The position numbers and the translations under genes are program-made. A stretch of DNA of 64,000 nt from Sphingobium sp. HWE2-09 (GTDB lineage: Bacteria > Pseudomonadota > Alphaproteobacteria > Sphingomonadales > Sphingomonadaceae). Shown one piece after another: positions 4,872-55,906 of this stretch (position 1 is its first letter; each line of letters starts with the position of its first letter). The notes beneath the pieces were generated by a model. That model had not been told where the DNA came from. It searched no databases and saw only the letters and a program-made list of their open reading frames with translations. The DNA is taken from positions 124,001 through 188,000 of the forward strand of contig NZ_JAYKZX010000003.1 of NCBI RefSeq assembly GCF_035989265.1. Direction: 5' to 3'.

Positions 4872-5519
4872 TTATCCCTGCGGTGGGCTGGTTTCGCCGA
4901 TCTCGTCGCTCGCCGGTTCCTCGCCCAGCGTCAGGCCGTGGCGCATCAGCATCGGAATGTTCGCGGCGGCGAAGACCACCGACACGATGGTCACGCCCCA
5001 CACCTTGACCGCCAGCCAGGTGTCGAAGCTCATCGATCGGCGCATCGCTTCATTGGCGATCGCCATGGCGACGAAGAAGAGCGCCCAGTTACGCGACAAT
5101 TTGAGCCAGCCTTCATGCGTCAGCCCGTCATAGGCGGCCTGGAGCAGATATTTGAGCAGCGGCTTGCCGCGCAGCAGACCGGCGAACAGCATCAGCGCGA
5201 AGAAGGCGTAAATGATGGTCGGCTTGATCTGGATGAAGCTCTGATCATGGAAATAGATGGTGAGGCCACCGAAGAACAGGATCAGCAGCGCCGACAGCCA
5301 GAGCATTGGCGACACGCGGCCCAGCTTCACCTTCGACACGATCACCGCGACCACGATCGCCACCATGAAGGCGGCGGTGCTGAACGTCATGGCCGTAATC
5401 GGATTGTCCGCGCCCCAGAACCAGCCCGCCCCCTTATAGGTCAGGAAGAACACCAGCAGCGGCCCGAAATCGAGCGCCAGGCTGAGCGTGCCGTTATGGG
5501 CGGGCTTGCTATTGGGCAT
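4872..5519 (-). CDS. yciB: Inner-membrane septation protein A family (YciB/IspZ)
   Basis: A 215-residue protein with five or so hydrophobic segments. It begins with the family-typical stretch LALDFGPLLVFFLTYKGAGW, and later carries KPTIIYAFFALMLFAGLLRG and the NWALFFVAMAIANEAMRR signature. YciB proteins are involved in cell-envelope integrity and division in Gammaproteobacteria; the molecular function is unsettled. It lies downstream of ftsY on the same strand, separated by a palindromic repeat, which is a common neighbourhood in sphingomonads. Confidence 0.88.
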   Translation of the reverse strand: MPNSKPAHNGTLSLALDFGPLLVFFLTYKGAGWFWGADNPITAMTFSTAAFMVAIVVAVIVSKVKLGRVSPMLWLSALLILFFGGLTIYFHDQSFIQIKPTIIYAFFALMLFAGLLRGKPLLKYLLQAAYDGLTHEGWLKLSRNWALFFVAMAIANEAMRRSMSFDTWLAVKVWGVTIVSVVFAAANIPMLMRHGLTLGEEPASDEIGETSPPQG

Positions 5520-5626: not shown

Positions 5627-6565
5627 TCAGCGCGCATAAGCGGTCCCGGCGATCGCGCGGGCCATGTCGCCCGGATCAAACGGGCGCAGATCCTCGATCT
5701 TCTCCCCCACGCCGATCGCATGAATCGGCAGGCGGAATTTCTCCGCCGCCGCGACCAGCACGCCGCCGCGCGCCGTGCCGTCCAGCTTGGTCATGACGAG
5801 GCCCGTGACCTGCGCGGTTTCTTTGAAGACTTCGATCTGGTTCAATGCATTTTGACCCGTGGTGGCATCCAGAACCAACACAACGTCGTGCGGGGCGGCC
5901 GGGTTCAATCGGCCCAGCACGCGGCGCACCTTCGCCAGTTCATCCATCAACTCGGTCTTGTTCTGCAAGCGTCCGGCAGTGTCGACGATCAGCACGTCGA
6001 TGCCGGTTTCAGTGGCCTGCTTGACCGCGTCGAACACGATGCCCGCCGCGTCGCCGCCTTCCTTGCCCGCGACGATGGGAATGCCCAGCCGCTCCGCCCA
6101 GACCTTAAGCTGGCCGATGGCCGCCGCGCGGAACGTGTCGCCTGCGGCCAGCATCACGCCATAATCCTGTTCCAGGAAATTATTGGCAAGCTTGGCGATG
6201 GTGGTGGTCTTGCCTGAGCCGTTGACGCCGATCACCAGGATCACCTGCGGGCGCGGGAAGGCTTCGATCTCCAGCGGGCGGGCCACCGGGGCCAGCGTCT
6301 TCTCAATCTCCTCCGCGATGATCTCGCGCAGATAGTCCTCGGTCAGTTCCTTGTTGAAGCGCCCTTCGGCCAGCCTCTCGCGCACGCGCCCAGCCATGGC
6401 GGGGCCAAGGTCGGACAGGATCAGCGCCTCCTCGATCTCGTCAAGGGTCTGCGTATCCAGGGCGGCCTTGGAGAAAAGGCCGGTGAGATTGTCGCCGAGC
6501 TTGTCGGACGTGCGCTTCAATCCGCCGAAGAGGCGGTCGCGCCAGCTGGTGCCGGTGTCTGTCAT
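5627..6565 (-). CDS. ftsY: Signal recognition particle receptor FtsY
   Basis: GTPase receptor that docks Ffh-bound ribosomes at the membrane. The 312-residue protein has a helical N domain followed by the G domain: P-loop GVNGSGKTTTIAKLA (about residue 114), DTFRAAA, DTAGRLQNK and TKLDGTARGG. It ends in the usual amphipathic region (DPGDMARAIAG). The long acidic A domain of enterobacterial FtsY is missing, as is usual in alphaproteobacteria. The start overlaps the stop of mtaB by four bases, so the two are probably co-transcribed. The partner gene ffh is in this window at 11590. Confidence 0.96.
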   Translation of the reverse strand: MTDTGTSWRDRLFGGLKRTSDKLGDNLTGLFSKAALDTQTLDEIEEALILSDLGPAMAGRVRERLAEGRFNKELTEDYLREIIAEEIEKTLAPVARPLEIEAFPRPQVILVIGVNGSGKTTTIAKLANNFLEQDYGVMLAAGDTFRAAAIGQLKVWAERLGIPIVAGKEGGDAAGIVFDAVKQATETGIDVLIVDTAGRLQNKTELMDELAKVRRVLGRLNPAAPHDVVLVLDATTGQNALNQIEVFKETAQVTGLVMTKLDGTARGGVLVAAAEKFRLPIHAIGVGEKIEDLRPFDPGDMARAIAGTAYAR

Positions 6566-7898
6566 TGCTGCGCCTCTTGCGCGATCAGCGCGCCATTCTC
6601 AAGCGCCGTGATCGTGGCACGGACGATGGAAGAGGGGGCGTGACCCGTCGCCAAGCGCACCGGCGCGAAATTTTCGGCATGGCCGGTCATCCCGTTGCGC
6701 TCGACCAGCAGCGCTTGGGTGGTGCCGATCAGGCTGCGCAGCCACGCATCGCGGCGCGTGGCGCAAGCGTCGCGCAGCAGGGCAGCGCGGGCCTTGACCG
6801 TCGCGCGATCGACCTGCGGCATCCGCGCGGCGGGGGTGCCGGTGCGCGGGGAGTATGGGAAGATATGGCCGTGGACGATATCGCAATCGGCGATCAGGGC
6901 CAGGCTGTTGGCGAACATCGCGTCATCCTCGGTCGGGAAGCCAGCGATGATGTCCGCGCCGATGCTGATGTCGGGGCGGGCGGCCTTGAGTCGCTCTACG
7001 ATGGCCATGGCGTCGGCGCGGCTGTGGCGGCGCTTCATCCGTTTGAGGATCATGTCGTCGCCGGCCTGAAGCGACAGATGGAGATGCGGCATCATGCGCG
7101 GTTCATGGGCGATCAGGTCGAACAGCCGATCGTCAATCTCCACGCTGTCGATGGAGGACAGGCGCAGGCGGGGGAGGTCCGGCACGCCTTTGAGGATACG
7201 TTCTATCAGCAGGCCGAGCGACGGGTTGCCGGGCAGGTCGGGACCATAGCTGGTGACGTCCACACCGGTCAGCACAATTTCCCGATAGCCCGCTTCGACC
7301 AGTTGCTTCGCCTTCTCCACCACCGCGCCTGCGGGCACGGAGCGGCTGTTGCCCCGGCCATAGGGGATGATGCAGAAGGTGCAGCGGTGGTCGCAGCCAT
7401 TCTGCACCTCCAGGAACGCGCGGGCATGATCGGCGAAAGCGCTGGCCATGTGCGGCGCGGTGTCGCGCACGGCCATGATGTCGGATACGCGGACTTTCTC
7501 CGTACCATGGACCCAATCCGTCACCCCAGCGAAGGCTGGGGTCTCACTTTTTTCGGGCGAAAGCGAAGAAAGAGAGATCCCAGCTTTCGCTGGGCTGACG
7601 GGCGATAGGTTTCCGCCTCCATCTTCTCCCGATTGCCGATCACCCCATCGACTTCCGCCATGGCGGCGAACGTTTCCGGTTCGGTCTGGGCGGCGCAGCC
7701 GGTAACGAGGATGCGGGCGTCGGGCCGTTCGCGGCGAGCGCGGCGGATCGCCTGGCGCGTCTGGCGCACCGCTTCGGCCGTCACGGCGCAGCTGTTGACG
7801 ACGATCAGGTCGTCCTGGTCGCGCGCCATATCGCGGATAGCCTCGCTCTCCGCGATGTTGAGGCGGCAGCCCATGGTGATGATGTCGGGGCCGCGCAT
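6562..7898 (-). pseudogene. mtaB: tRNA t6A37 methylthiotransferase MtaB, frame broken by one base next to a palindromic insertion
   Basis: MtaB is a radical-SAM enzyme that adds a methylthio group to t6A37 in tRNA. The N-terminal UPF0004 part (7898 down to about 7605) has its three cluster cysteines in MGCRLN, NSCAVT and TGCAAQ. The C-terminal part, in another frame, has the radical-SAM motif CDHRCTFC and a TRAM-like tail. Between them sits a palindromic repeat (7519-7600), in which the first frame runs to a TGA at 7521. The frames differ by one base. Adding one A to the A6 run at 7548-7553 would join them into about 445 residues with a roughly 35-residue insertion relative to the usual length near 410. 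Either this is a sequencing slip, a real null mutation, or slippage is used. The start overlaps the dapF stop (TGATG). Confidence 0.85.
7519..7600. repeat. Palindromic repeat element inside mtaB
   Basis: The arms are about 7519-7547 (cgtcaccccagcgaaggctg...) and 7572-7600 (...agctttcgctgggctgacg). It belongs to the same general class as the intergenic palindromes elsewhere in the window but lies within a coding sequence, between the N-terminal and radical-SAM domains. Confidence 0.8.
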
Positions 7899-8698
7899 CA
7901 GAAACGGTCCCAGTCAGCCTCACCGTCGAAGACATGGGTGGCAGGGCCGGTCATGCGGATCGTGCCGCCCGGCGCCCAGTCGATGACGAGGTCGCCGCCC
8001 GGCAGGCTGACGGTCGTCGGACCGCTGACCAGCTTGCGCCGGACGGCGGCGACGGCGGTGGCGCAGGCGCCGGTGCCGCATGCGCGCGTCAGGCCCGCGC
8101 CGCGTTCCCAGACGACCAGGCGGATATGGTTTTCGCCCATAATCTGCGCGAAATTGACGTTCACCCGCTGCGGGAACAGCGGATCATGCTCGATCAGCGG
8201 GCCGAGACGATCGAAGTTTACACCGTCCAGATCGTCCACGAAGAAGATGACGTGCGGGTTGCCGACATTCACGGCGGCGGGGGCGGGCAGGTCTTCCCAA
8301 CTGGCGCTCATCGTCAGCGTGTCCATGGGATAGGCGAGCGGGATCGCATCCCAATCGAAGCGGGGTGCGCCCATATCGACGCTGGCGCCGCCATCGACGG
8401 CCTTGGCATCGAGCAGGCCCGCCTTGGTGCGGATCAGCACATCGCGGCCGACGAACAGGGGTACGCAGCGGGTGGCGTTGCCGCACGCCTCCACTTCGCT
8501 GCCGTCGGCGTTGAAGATATGCATGGAGACGTCCGCGTCGTCGGCCTCGCCGATCAGGATAAGCTGGTCGCAGCCGATCCCGGCATGGCGATCGGCAATG
8601 GCGCGCGCGCGCGCCGCCGTCATGGCGATCGCGTGCATGCGCGCGTCGATCACGACGAAATCGTTGCCCAGGCCGTGCATTTTGGAGAAGCGTCCCAT
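7898..8698 (-). CDS. dapF: Diaminopimelate epimerase
   Basis: Converts LL- to meso-diaminopimelate, the cross-linking amino acid of peptidoglycan and the precursor of lysine. The 266-residue protein shows both catalytic cysteine motifs: EACGNATRC near residue 72, and TRACGTGACA near residue 214. The N-terminal signature MHGLGNDFVV is also present. A start seven codons upstream is possible, but the ATG at 8698 begins the conserved MGRFSKMHGLGND. It forms an operon with mtaB and ftsY (overlapping stop and start). Confidence 0.96.
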   Translation of the reverse strand: MGRFSKMHGLGNDFVVIDARMHAIAMTAARARAIADRHAGIGCDQLILIGEADDADVSMHIFNADGSEVEACGNATRCVPLFVGRDVLIRTKAGLLDAKAVDGGASVDMGAPRFDWDAIPLAYPMDTLTMSASWEDLPAPAAVNVGNPHVIFFVDDLDGVNFDRLGPLIEHDPLFPQRVNVNFAQIMGENHIRLVVWERGAGLTRACGTGACATAVAAVRRKLVSGPTTVSLPGGDLVIDWAPGGTIRMTGPATHVFDGEADWDRF

Positions 8699-8771
8699 AA
8701 GCGTGCATCTAATGCGCACCTATGGGAAAAGCCAGTGGCTGACGAAGGGCACTTCGTCAGCCGCCGCGGAC

Positions 8772-52803: not shown

Positions 52804-55164
52804 GTGGATAGCCGACAGGATCATAACGAACGACCGGATCGCCAGGCGCGGGTGACGCTGCGATCCCTGATGGGCCTGTCGCCCGTCAACGGCGTGGTGG
52901 GCGTGCGCATATTGGAGGCGCAGCTGCGGTCCGCCGACAGCGTCGCCATCCTGCGCCAGGGCATGAATATCTGCGGCCTGCTCTTCCTGTGGCAGGTCTT
53001 TTCCCATTGCTGCCCACCCGCGCTGATCGCAGGCTGGAGCGTCGCGTTGATCGTTGCGACCCTGGTGGCGGCCGGGCTGGACCGACAGCGGCGACGGGCC
53101 GGGAATATCGGCCTGACCCGGGCCGACCTGCGGCGGCACGCTTTGGGGGGATTGTTGCAGGGGCTGGTCTGGGCCGCCTGCATGGCGCTGATCTCCGGGT
53201 CCGGGCAGACCGACGAACTGGTGGCGCTCTGGACCCTGGTGAGTTGCATCATGGTCTGCGGCGCCATCAGCTATGCCGCGACCCCGCTGTCGGCCACCGC
53301 CTATCTCGTCCCCTGCATCGCGGGCATTTTCGCGATGTTCGATGCGGGCGGGCAATTGCCGTTGCAGGCGCTGGCGACGAGCTATGCCCTGTCGCTGCTG
53401 GCAGGCTGCCTCATCTATGCGCGCACCTTTGCGCGGCAGCATAGCAGCACCGCCCAGCTGGCGGAAAAGAGCGAAGTCGTCAGCCTGTTGCTGCGGGAGT
53501 TTGAGGAAGGCGGGTCCGACTGGCTGTGGCAGACAGACGCTTTGCGGCGGATCAGCGGGGTGTCGCACCGCTTTGCCGAAACCATGGGGATGCCGCCGGG
53601 CCAGATGGAAGGCGCGTCGCTGGTGCAGATGTTGGCGGGCAGCGGCTGGGACGATGGTCGGTTCGCGGCGGGGCTGCACAGCCTGGCCGATCATTTGAAA
53701 CGGCGCGAAAATTTCAGCAATCTGGTTCTGCCGGTCGAAGTCCGGGGGCAGTGGCGCTGGTGGCAATTGTCGGCGTCGCCGCGCTATGACGAGAACGGCA
53801 TTTTCCAAGGGTTCCGCGGGGTCGGATCGGACGTCACGGCGCAACGCGAATCGGCGGACAAGATCGCGCAGCTGGCGCGCTTCGATCCGCTGACCGGCCT
53901 GCCCAACCGCAGCCACCTGCGCGAGGTGCTGGACCAGGCGATGGGCGCGGCCAAGGGCCGGTCGCCGGGCTGCGGTTTCCTGATGATCGACCTCGACCGG
54001 TTCAAGGCGATCAACGATAGTCTGGGCCATCAGGTCGGCGACCAGTTGCTGAGCCAGGTAGCCCGGCGATTGCGGCAGGTGTGCACGGCGGACGAGTTTT
54101 GCGGTCGGATCGGCGGCGACGAATTTGCCGTGGTCATGCCGCATATTCGCGACGGCGCGGCCATTCCGCGTCTGGCGTCCGCCATCATCGGCGCGCTGTC
54201 GGCGTCCTACCAAGTCGATCACCATCTCCTGCATGTCGGCGCGTCGGTCGGGTCGGCGCTGTCCCCGATGGACGGGCGCGAATCCGAGGCCTTGATCCGC
54301 AGCGCCGACCTTGCCCTCTATCGCGCCAAGGACGAGGGCGGCGGCATCCATTGCGCCTATGAGCCGCAGCTTCATGCGCAGGCGGAAGAGCGGCGGCAGC
54401 TGGAACAGGCGCTGCGCGAAGCCCTGGAAAAGGATCAGTTGCACGTTCTCTATCAACCGGTGGTCGATGCCGAGCGGGGCGTGGTGCTGGGGTTCGAGGC
54501 GCTGGTGCGCTGGACCCATCCGGAACTGGGCGCGATTTCCCCGGTCAAGTTCGTGCCGGTGGCGGAAGAGGCGCGCCTGATCGCGCCGATCGGCGAATGG
54601 GTGTTGCGCACCGCCTGCATGGAGGCGGTGACATGGCCGGACGATATCCGGATCGCGGTCAATGTATCGGCCGAACAATTGACCCATCCCAGCTTCGTGG
54701 CGGCGGTCGTGTCGGCGCTGGGGCAAAGCGGGCTTGATGCCCGGCGGCTGGAGCTGGAGGTCACCGAAAGCGTGTTCCTGAACGAGGATGCGGGTGCGCT
54801 CAAGATATTGGACCAGTTGCTGAGCCTGGGCATCCAATTGTCGCTCGATGACTTCGGCACCGGCTATAGTTCGTTGGGCTATCTCAGCCGCACGCGGTTC
54901 AACACGATCAAGATCGACCGCAGCTTCGTCGTTGGCGCTTCGCAAAATACCGCCGAGAGCCTGGCGATCATCCGGGCGGTGGTAACGTTGGCCGACAGCC
55001 TGGGCATGAGTACGACGGCCGAAGGCGTGGAGACGGAGGCCGAATTGCAGATGGTCCGGCAACTGGGCTGCAAGAAGGTGCAGGGCTATTATTTCGGACG
55101 GCCGATGTCGCCGCAGGATGCCGCGCGCCTGTTTCCAGCGCCGCAGCGGGTGGCGATCGGTTAA
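52804..55164 (+). CDS. GGDEF-EAL cyclic-di-GMP protein with membrane and PAS domains
   Basis: A 786-residue protein that may make or break cyclic-di-GMP. The N-terminal 200 residues have several membrane segments (INICGLLFLWQVFSHCC region, AALISGSGQTDELVAL neighbours). A PAS-like domain follows (WLWQTDALRRISGVSHRFAE). The GGDEF domain is intact (RIGGDEFAVVMP, about residue 437). The EAL domain has GFEALVRW (about residue 563), DDFGTGYSSLGYL and AEGVETEAEL, so both activities could be present. The start is a GTG at 52804; an ATG at 52870 is an alternative. Its stop overlaps the convergent ParA gene. Confidence 0.9.
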   Translation: MDSRQDHNERPDRQARVTLRSLMGLSPVNGVVGVRILEAQLRSADSVAILRQGMNICGLLFLWQVFSHCCPPALIAGWSVALIVATLVAAGLDRQRRRAGNIGLTRADLRRHALGGLLQGLVWAACMALISGSGQTDELVALWTLVSCIMVCGAISYAATPLSATAYLVPCIAGIFAMFDAGGQLPLQALATSYALSLLAGCLIYARTFARQHSSTAQLAEKSEVVSLLLREFEEGGSDWLWQTDALRRISGVSHRFAETMGMPPGQMEGASLVQMLAGSGWDDGRFAAGLHSLADHLKRRENFSNLVLPVEVRGQWRWWQLSASPRYDENGIFQGFRGVGSDVTAQRESADKIAQLARFDPLTGLPNRSHLREVLDQAMGAAKGRSPGCGFLMIDLDRFKAINDSLGHQVGDQLLSQVARRLRQVCTADEFCGRIGGDEFAVVMPHIRDGAAIPRLASAIIGALSASYQVDHHLLHVGASVGSALSPMDGRESEALIRSADLALYRAKDEGGGIHCAYEPQLHAQAEERRQLEQALREALEKDQLHVLYQPVVDAERGVVLGFEALVRWTHPELGAISPVKFVPVAEEARLIAPIGEWVLRTACMEAVTWPDDIRIAVNVSAEQLTHPSFVAAVVSALGQSGLDARRLELEVTESVFLNEDAGALKILDQLLSLGIQLSLDDFGTGYSSLGYLSRTRFNTIKIDRSFVVGASQNTAESLAIIRAVVTLADSLGMSTTAEGVETEAELQMVRQLGCKKVQGYYFGRPMSPQDAARLFPAPQRVAIG

Positions 55165-55906
55165 GCCAGCAACTGCCGTTCGACCATGGTCCAGAGCGCG
55201 GCGAAGGCGTGTGCGGGTGGGGACGCCGGCGCGAAGGCGCCGAGCGGTTTGCGGCGCACCGTCATCTGCTCGATCATGCTCGCCATCGGGATGGCGGGCC
55301 AGCCGGGCTGGCTTTCCAACGCGGCGCGATGCAGGCTGCGGCGGCGGTCGACCATCGAATAGACCGGCAGGATCGGCGCGTGGCTGCCGCCGCGCTGGAC
55401 CAGATAGCGGGCGACCTCGCCCATCGCCCGTTGCGACAGGGGGAGGGGATGACCGGGATGACGATCAGATCGGCGGCGCGCAGCACCTGCTCGCTGGTTT
55501 CGGTCAGGCCGGGCGGGCAGTCGAGGATGATGCGATCATAGTCGCGGCCGAGGCTCTCGATCAGTTTCGACAGCCGCTTCTTCTTGTCCATTTCACGGAA
55601 GAGATGGTCGAGGCTGCGCAGCGAGGTGTCGGCGGCGATCAGGTCCAGCCCCGGCACGGTCGAAGGCTGGATCAGCTTGCGGACGTCCACATCCTTGCTG
55701 AAGATCGCCTGGGCGGCGTCGCGGCTTTCCGTGTCGGTGGACAGCAGCCAGCTGGATGCCGCCTGCGGGTCCAGATCCCATAGAAGGGTGCGCCGTTTGG
55801 AGATGCAGGCCGATGCCCAGGCCAGGTTGATCGCGAAGGTGGTCTTCCCCACGCCGCCCTTCAGACTATAGACGGCGATGGTCGCCAATGCCGGTTCCTT
55901 TGCCAT
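55161..55906 (-). pseudogene. ParA-family ATPase, one-base frameshift in a C run
   Basis: A ParA/MinD-like P-loop ATPase. The N-terminal part has the deviant Walker A VYSLKGGVGKTTFAINLA, DLDPQAASSW and IILDCPPGLTETSEQVLRAA. After VIPVIPSP the frame is lost; the family sequence continues in another frame as LSQRAMGEVARYLVQRGGSH and ends at 55161. One extra C in the C5 run at 55439-55443 would rejoin them into a 248-residue protein of normal length. It may be a sequencing slip or a real mutation. There is no parB or plasmid gene nearby, so this is probably a chromosomal orphan ParA-like protein. Confidence 0.82.

Follow-up and report, generated by a model that had tools for sequence, protein, structure and literature searches.

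A probable niche for palindromic repeats in the MtaB interdomain linker of Sphingobium

The window analyzed here is a stretch of 64,000 nt from a genome of the genus Sphingobium (G000; 4.44 Mb, 3 contigs). On its minus strand, dapF, mtaB, and ftsY follow one another with overlapping gene ends (Table 1). The initial annotation placed a palindromic repeat between the N-terminal and radical-SAM domains of MtaB and read the frame as broken; the palindrome arms and the position of the two halves of the gene in different frames confirmed both points. The N-terminal frame is ended by a TGA at 7523–7521, created by the end of the repeat itself, and the C-terminal frame runs without stops from 7935 to 6562. 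Neither half alone reached the TIGR01579 cut-off for the whole protein. This was the sole mtaB found in the genome. The other two matches to the methylthiotransferase family were MiaB (472 bits, cut-off 355) and RimO (534 bits, cut-off 357), so there is no second MtaB to cover for the broken one. Near the 3′ end of this rimO gene lies a strict core of the same repeat (G000:C3:718708, L188; family A, see below).

The arms of the palindrome are 38 nt each, 87% complementary, and separated by 8 nt. Folding of 121 nt of RNA around it gave −62.4 kcal/mol, compared with a mean of −41.4 (S.D. 4.03) for 200 shuffled sequences (z = −5.21), none of which folded as well. Nine Rfam matches (mir-515 and others, BjrC68) all fell under the gathering scores and were rejected as identities. 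The two units of the palindrome were then compared with the CGTC-1 class of REPs, as defined in the sections on CGTC REPs of PMC3733652 (Di Nocera et al. 2013). Both carry the unpaired CGTC tag at one end and a 4-nt loop, as in that class. Stem position 1 is A-T, whereas position 2, likewise A-T in CGTC-1, is C-G in one of the units and mismatched in its partner, and several other genomic copies read CGTCATCCCAGC; the tail, which in CGTC-1 has 3 nt and is mostly CCA, is CTC in both units. Strict cores of the repeat, hereafter family A, number 15 in the source genome, including the two in mtaB, with none for a reversed control pattern. Dimers also occur at L190 and L191, in agreement with the multicopy, inverted-dimer habit of CGTC-1. 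A search of the genome for Y1_Tnp (PF01797) returned no match, and hence no Y1 transposase and no cognate RAYT for REPIN mobilization; as far as this family goes, the lack of association with a transposase that marks CGTC-1 was also found. By these published criteria, several of which agree, the palindrome is closest to a CGTC-1 REP dimer. A second palindrome, family B (CCGTTCG..TCGAGCGAAGTCGAG), has 19 strict cores in the same genome, again with none for the reversed control.

Table 1. Coordinates of genes and repeat features at the mtaB locus (positions within the window)
Feature	Position	Strand	Remarks
ftsY	5627-6565	(-)	start shares ATGA with mtaB stop
mtaB 3′ part (radical-SAM and C-terminal domains)	6562-7518	(-)	TIGR01579 profile positions 121-401; different frame from 5′ part
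mtaB 5′ part (N-terminal domain)	7521-7898	(-)	125 aa; TIGR01579 profile positions 1-101
dapF	7898-8719	(-)	stop shares TGATG with mtaB start
Inverted dimer of two CGTC-1-type REP units, MtaB interdomain linker	7519-7600		arms 7518-7555 / 7564-7601
REP unit 1	7519-7545	(+)	CGTC tag 7519-7522; 8-bp stem, 8/8 paired; loop GAAG; tail CTC
REP unit 2	7574-7600	(-)	CGTC tag 7600-7597; stem 7/8 paired; loop GAAA; tail CTC
A6 run named by the initial annotation	7548-7553	(-)	not the aligned place of the length difference
Short T run	7569-7571	(-)	best-aligned place of the one-base difference to L102, L122, L127, and L145

For comparison across the genus, 94 genomes were searched. A strong mtaB match was present in 91 (not in G020, G081, or G087), and 90 were examined, G082 being left out. 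The gene is open through the linker and both domains in 89 of the 90, the window's copy being the only broken one. Linkers were classified by hand as family A (23, window included), family B (15), scars (7), other length variants (6), or no insert (39); 36 of the empty linkers are listed and the other three (L175, L179, and L181) were read separately, and the classes include some degenerate members (L110, L123, L146, L160, and L173). Family A linkers measure 37–64 aa and family B linkers 25–55 aa, compared with 13–15 aa for the 36 listed empties. Family A was found in frame at this site in 22 relatives and, as judged by eye, always in the phase that gives PSSQRKLGS..PAFAG. Family B is unrelated to it and is read in at least two phases: the peptides PFVSSEVEKR and VRVERSRDT, considered as two separate families, proved on inspection by eye to be the same DNA in two phases.

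The comparison with close relatives that had been proposed as a check therefore gave the same class of repeat, in frame and at the same site. The expectation of a repeat in frame held, although the second unrelated family, the multiple phases, the scars, and the genus-wide occupancy had been missed. The extra in-frame peptide is nearer 31 residues than the approximately 35 first given, because the in-frame insert of L102, the nearest ortholog, gives a 45-aa linker and most uninserted relatives have 14 aa. Two further kinds of addition were seen within family A inserts. In L137 and L153, a third repeat (peptide EAQRTR..) is nested in the insert with the frame kept, and in L118, L126, P0004, and P0087 a short extra in-frame block (PEGRRQPT or a close variant) lies in the first hairpin.

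At the protein level, the best 120 of 7999 clusters were considered, and 115 could be classified automatically: 42 as A, 14 as B, 35 as none, and 24 as other or scar, some of these resembling A or B. The protein database contains open frames only and so cannot reveal broken alleles. The closest protein among the matches listed is 96% identical and has no insert. Among named loci from outside Sphingobium, a long linker of this sort was present in 1 of the 40 that were classified (L050, EPVEGR type); the 41st, L057, gave no match.

The initial annotation had located the fault in the A6 run. Alignment to in-frame relatives instead favors the short T run (positions 7569–7571 on the plus strand), ∼16 nt away. 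With the gap placed there, 41 matches were obtained with L102 compared with 36 for the best placement in A6; the corresponding values were 34 and 28 for both L122 and L127, and 36 and 31 for L145 (L106 was left out of this scoring because of its differing length). Nor does ORF logic alone single out A6. The insert has its loop and the stretch downstream in common with the in-frame inserts of L102 and P0004, so that it looks inherited; such an orthologous insert would be old and tolerated, and the window allele has probably lost one base from it later.

Selection on the gene was compared with that in eight relatives. dN/dS between the window gene and these relatives was 0.038–0.109 in the N-terminal domain and 0.078–0.143 over the first 840 nt of the C-terminal part, and among the relatives themselves 0–0.284 and 0.084–0.159, respectively. 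Neither half is relaxed, which implies that the break is either recent or a sequencing error. The two are rated about equal, each just short of an even chance. An error of sequencing or assembly would mean that the strain itself carries an ordinary insert, in frame. The kind of change, a contraction of a short homopolymer by a single base, fits this, as do the lack of relaxed selection and the integrity of the other 89 mtaB genes. So does a second one-base break, in a conserved ParA-like ATPase gene at ∼55164–55906 (minus strand), where a contraction in a C run at ∼55440–55457 loses the frame after about residue 156; the gene is open in G092 and G001. Against an error, T3 is a short run for this kind of fault, and over ∼464 kb there was no clear excess of frame-junction clusters (10 per 259 comparable ORFs in G000 and 8 per 225 in the reverse test with G001), where all junctions but those in mtaB and the ParA-like gene enter as bare counts. 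If instead the break is a real and recent null allele, ms2t6A would be absent and ftsY would be translated by re-initiation. That is the sequence as given, and the missing excess of junctions in the assembly then counts in its favor, as does the identity of the remaining methylthiotransferases, neither of which covers for MtaB. To our knowledge, E. coli lacks MtaB, so its loss is survivable in principle. A null sits less easily with the absence of decay around the break and of any other broken allele among the 89.

To follow the history of the inserts, a tree was built from 87 MtaB proteins with the linkers removed (L175, L179, and L181 left out). Automatic class labels were wrong at least for L171 (called A) and L172 and were replaced by the hand-made ones. 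Inserted or scarred linkers versus the rest required 24 changes on the tree, and well-supported branches force at least 15 of these. There is some clustering of the states: for the inserted-or-scarred group, 13 of 500 shuffles scored as low. Four pairs of loci (L112/L118, L114/L116, L104/L108, and L122/L135) are 95–99% identical in the 360 nt that flank the linker at either end and have strongly different linkers. On this comparison of alleles, occupancy of the mtaB linker evidently turns over fast among close relatives.

Inserted and empty alleles also differ for a few codons past the repeat, and no target-site duplication was found at the mtaB inserts; for these reasons, the inserts are not established as simple insertions into empty sites. 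The residue just upstream of the site is Tyr in 33 of 35 inserted alleles and Phe in 30 of 34 empty ones (Fisher p = 6e-13; 86 loci overall, two family B and two empty rows with neither residue having been dropped), and all 7 scarred alleles have Tyr. Such an association would be expected if family A had been inserted once, long ago, and had then spread by short-tract exchange among species, and the single phase of family A (by eye) may fit that history as well as it fits many insertions. We regard this as possible but doubtful. The distance from the upstream residue to the repeat varies by 0–9 nt and family A loop types differ between lineages, both by eye; moreover, whatever the history of family A, family B, which is unrelated and read in two phases or more, calls for more than one insertion.

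Placement of the repeats was examined in 39 named loci, each ∼7 kb long, which come from the genus or its nearest kin and for the most part represent the same species as the 90 genomes. Counted as strict cores rather than elements, 20 lie in the mtaB linker and 10 elsewhere, with none in dapF, ftsY, or the MtaB domains. In L026, L027, L034, L041, L046, and L064, family A cores are found just beyond the end of ftsY, at ∼4890–5070. Within the source genome, 29 further repeat loci were fetched and the 26 with a strict core examined, six of the many overlapping ORFs, chosen by eye, being scanned with Pfam; on this basis, none of the 26 lies clearly within a conserved gene. Long ORFs over these other copies look antisense or fortuitous and were not accepted as genes, a domain match being obtained for only one of the six. 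This was L199:2084-3814, where a family B core is near the N-terminal side of an amidohydrolase ORF and may precede its true start. At a density of 27 repeat loci per 4.4 Mb, chance alone would place one in a given 45-nt target in ∼3 genomes in 10,000, so even a dozen independent events would be far above chance. The excess at the mtaB linker may reflect targeting or selective retention alike.

We consider it likely that the MtaB linker is a tolerated niche for palindromes in Sphingobium and that the window holds an old in-frame family A allele minus one base of the T run. The linker would be occupied either by family A, two CGTC-1-type REPs in inverted orientation, or by family B, adding ∼10–50 probably disordered residues that are presumably made as part of MtaB, and an in-frame insert at this place should leave both domains intact. 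Later partial deletion would produce the in-frame scars, as comparison of the alleles indicates, and the turnover itself could come from fresh insertions, from deletions, or from short tracts exchanged between species. Selection would keep MtaB readable and perhaps also maintain translation into the overlapping ftsY, such that out-of-frame versions are lost. ftsY is essential, and because the mtaB stop overlaps its start, an out-of-frame insert would cost the cell MtaB and perhaps FtsY too. The window allele would then have lost its base by recent mutation, or in sequencing. A structural model of an inserted protein (P0080), with MtaB (an integrative model), MiaB, and RimO as its closest counterparts in the PDB, gave pLDDT < 50 for residues 105–127 of the insert; the alignment behind it is shallow (41 sequences) and confidence is also low at 134–146, 166–177, and 277–282, so the model is only suggestive of disorder. 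Tolerance alone is insufficient, however, as about half of the species are occupied where random insertion predicts almost none, and no insertion has been seen happening.

Alternatively, the repeats may be maintained as helpful, for instance as an mRNA hairpin that tunes a gapless dapF–mtaB–ftsY operon with no intergenic space for a REP. Repeated occupancy of a single place in the three genes by two palindrome families that are unrelated speaks for such a benefit, as do the overlapping gene ends and the strong fold in the window; with 39 of 90 genomes lacking an insert and scars indicating that loss is tolerated, we think it unlikely. In a stronger form, which we judge quite unlikely, the linker would be a surrogate intergenic site at which selection favors a REP-type hairpin and repeatedly recruits unrelated palindromes, the protein being made to tolerate them.

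Very improbable is slippage of the ribosome or polymerase on A6 ahead of the strong hairpin to give some full-length MtaB: a −1 shift in the mRNA at CCG AAA AAA GUG, which a GC-rich stem follows, would join the frames, but programmed −1 frameshifting was rejected as the main reading because the zero frame is AAA AAA G and not the classic motif A AAA AAG, six As are short for transcriptional slippage, and the in-frame L102, L122, L127, and L145 all lack the A6 run on which the initial annotation had suggested slippage.

The value of the locus lies in a natural series: across 90 genomes of a free-living genus that includes cultured species, the same linker is empty, filled by either family, nested, or scarred. 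With it, one can test directly whether such inserts are of benefit, of harm, or of neither to the cell, at what pace they are gained and lost, and whether they are aimed at the site or just tolerated there.

Among known systems, inverted REP pairs that form one long hairpin, as in the window, are typical of REPINs and their RAYTs. The source genome differs in that no Y1 transposase was found in it; 23 of 94 genomes of the genus have one. Closer are the CGTC REPs of PMC3733652, for which families are given in S. chlorophenolicum and S. wittichii. CGTC-1 elements share with the window the CGTC tag, the 8-bp stem, the 4-nt loop, inverted dimers, and intragenic copies; the window differs in its tail, CTC in place of CCA, and in a second stem position other than A-T. 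Intragenic CGTC copies in many genes are described there, and its discussion allows that REP inserts may be neutral within flexible linkers; the sections on CGTC REPs do not include a single linker occupied genus-wide, a second palindrome family, or scars. The same source notes, for recB of two Xanthomonas species, different REPs at approximately the same place in one gene, as in mtaB. That case involves two species, whereas 38 of 90 mtaB genes have an insert and 7 more a scar.

Rickettsia palindromic elements (RPE-1, RPE-4, and RPE-6) resemble the inserts of the relatives as palindromes in frame inside housekeeping proteins; this in-frame reading is present in the 22 relatives with family A and absent from the window. 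The initial annotation had drawn the likeness, and it goes beyond analogy, given that R. conorii RPE-6 is filed as CGTC-1 and RPE-4 as CGTC-4 in PMC3733652 and that the window shares several CGTC-1 features. That account already has palindromic selfish DNA becoming protein in Rickettsia and, in scattered genes, elsewhere. Here, by contrast, the host is free-living and high in GC, a single gene is hit repeatedly rather than many genes, and the source genome holds 15 and 19 strict cores of two families. In the titles and abstract openings of the papers listed, neither REPs in mtaB nor the mtaB linker as a hotspot is reported. Intragenic CGTC REPs are already published (PMC3733652), and what the present comparison adds is one linker that appears to have been filled, changed, and emptied many times within one genus.
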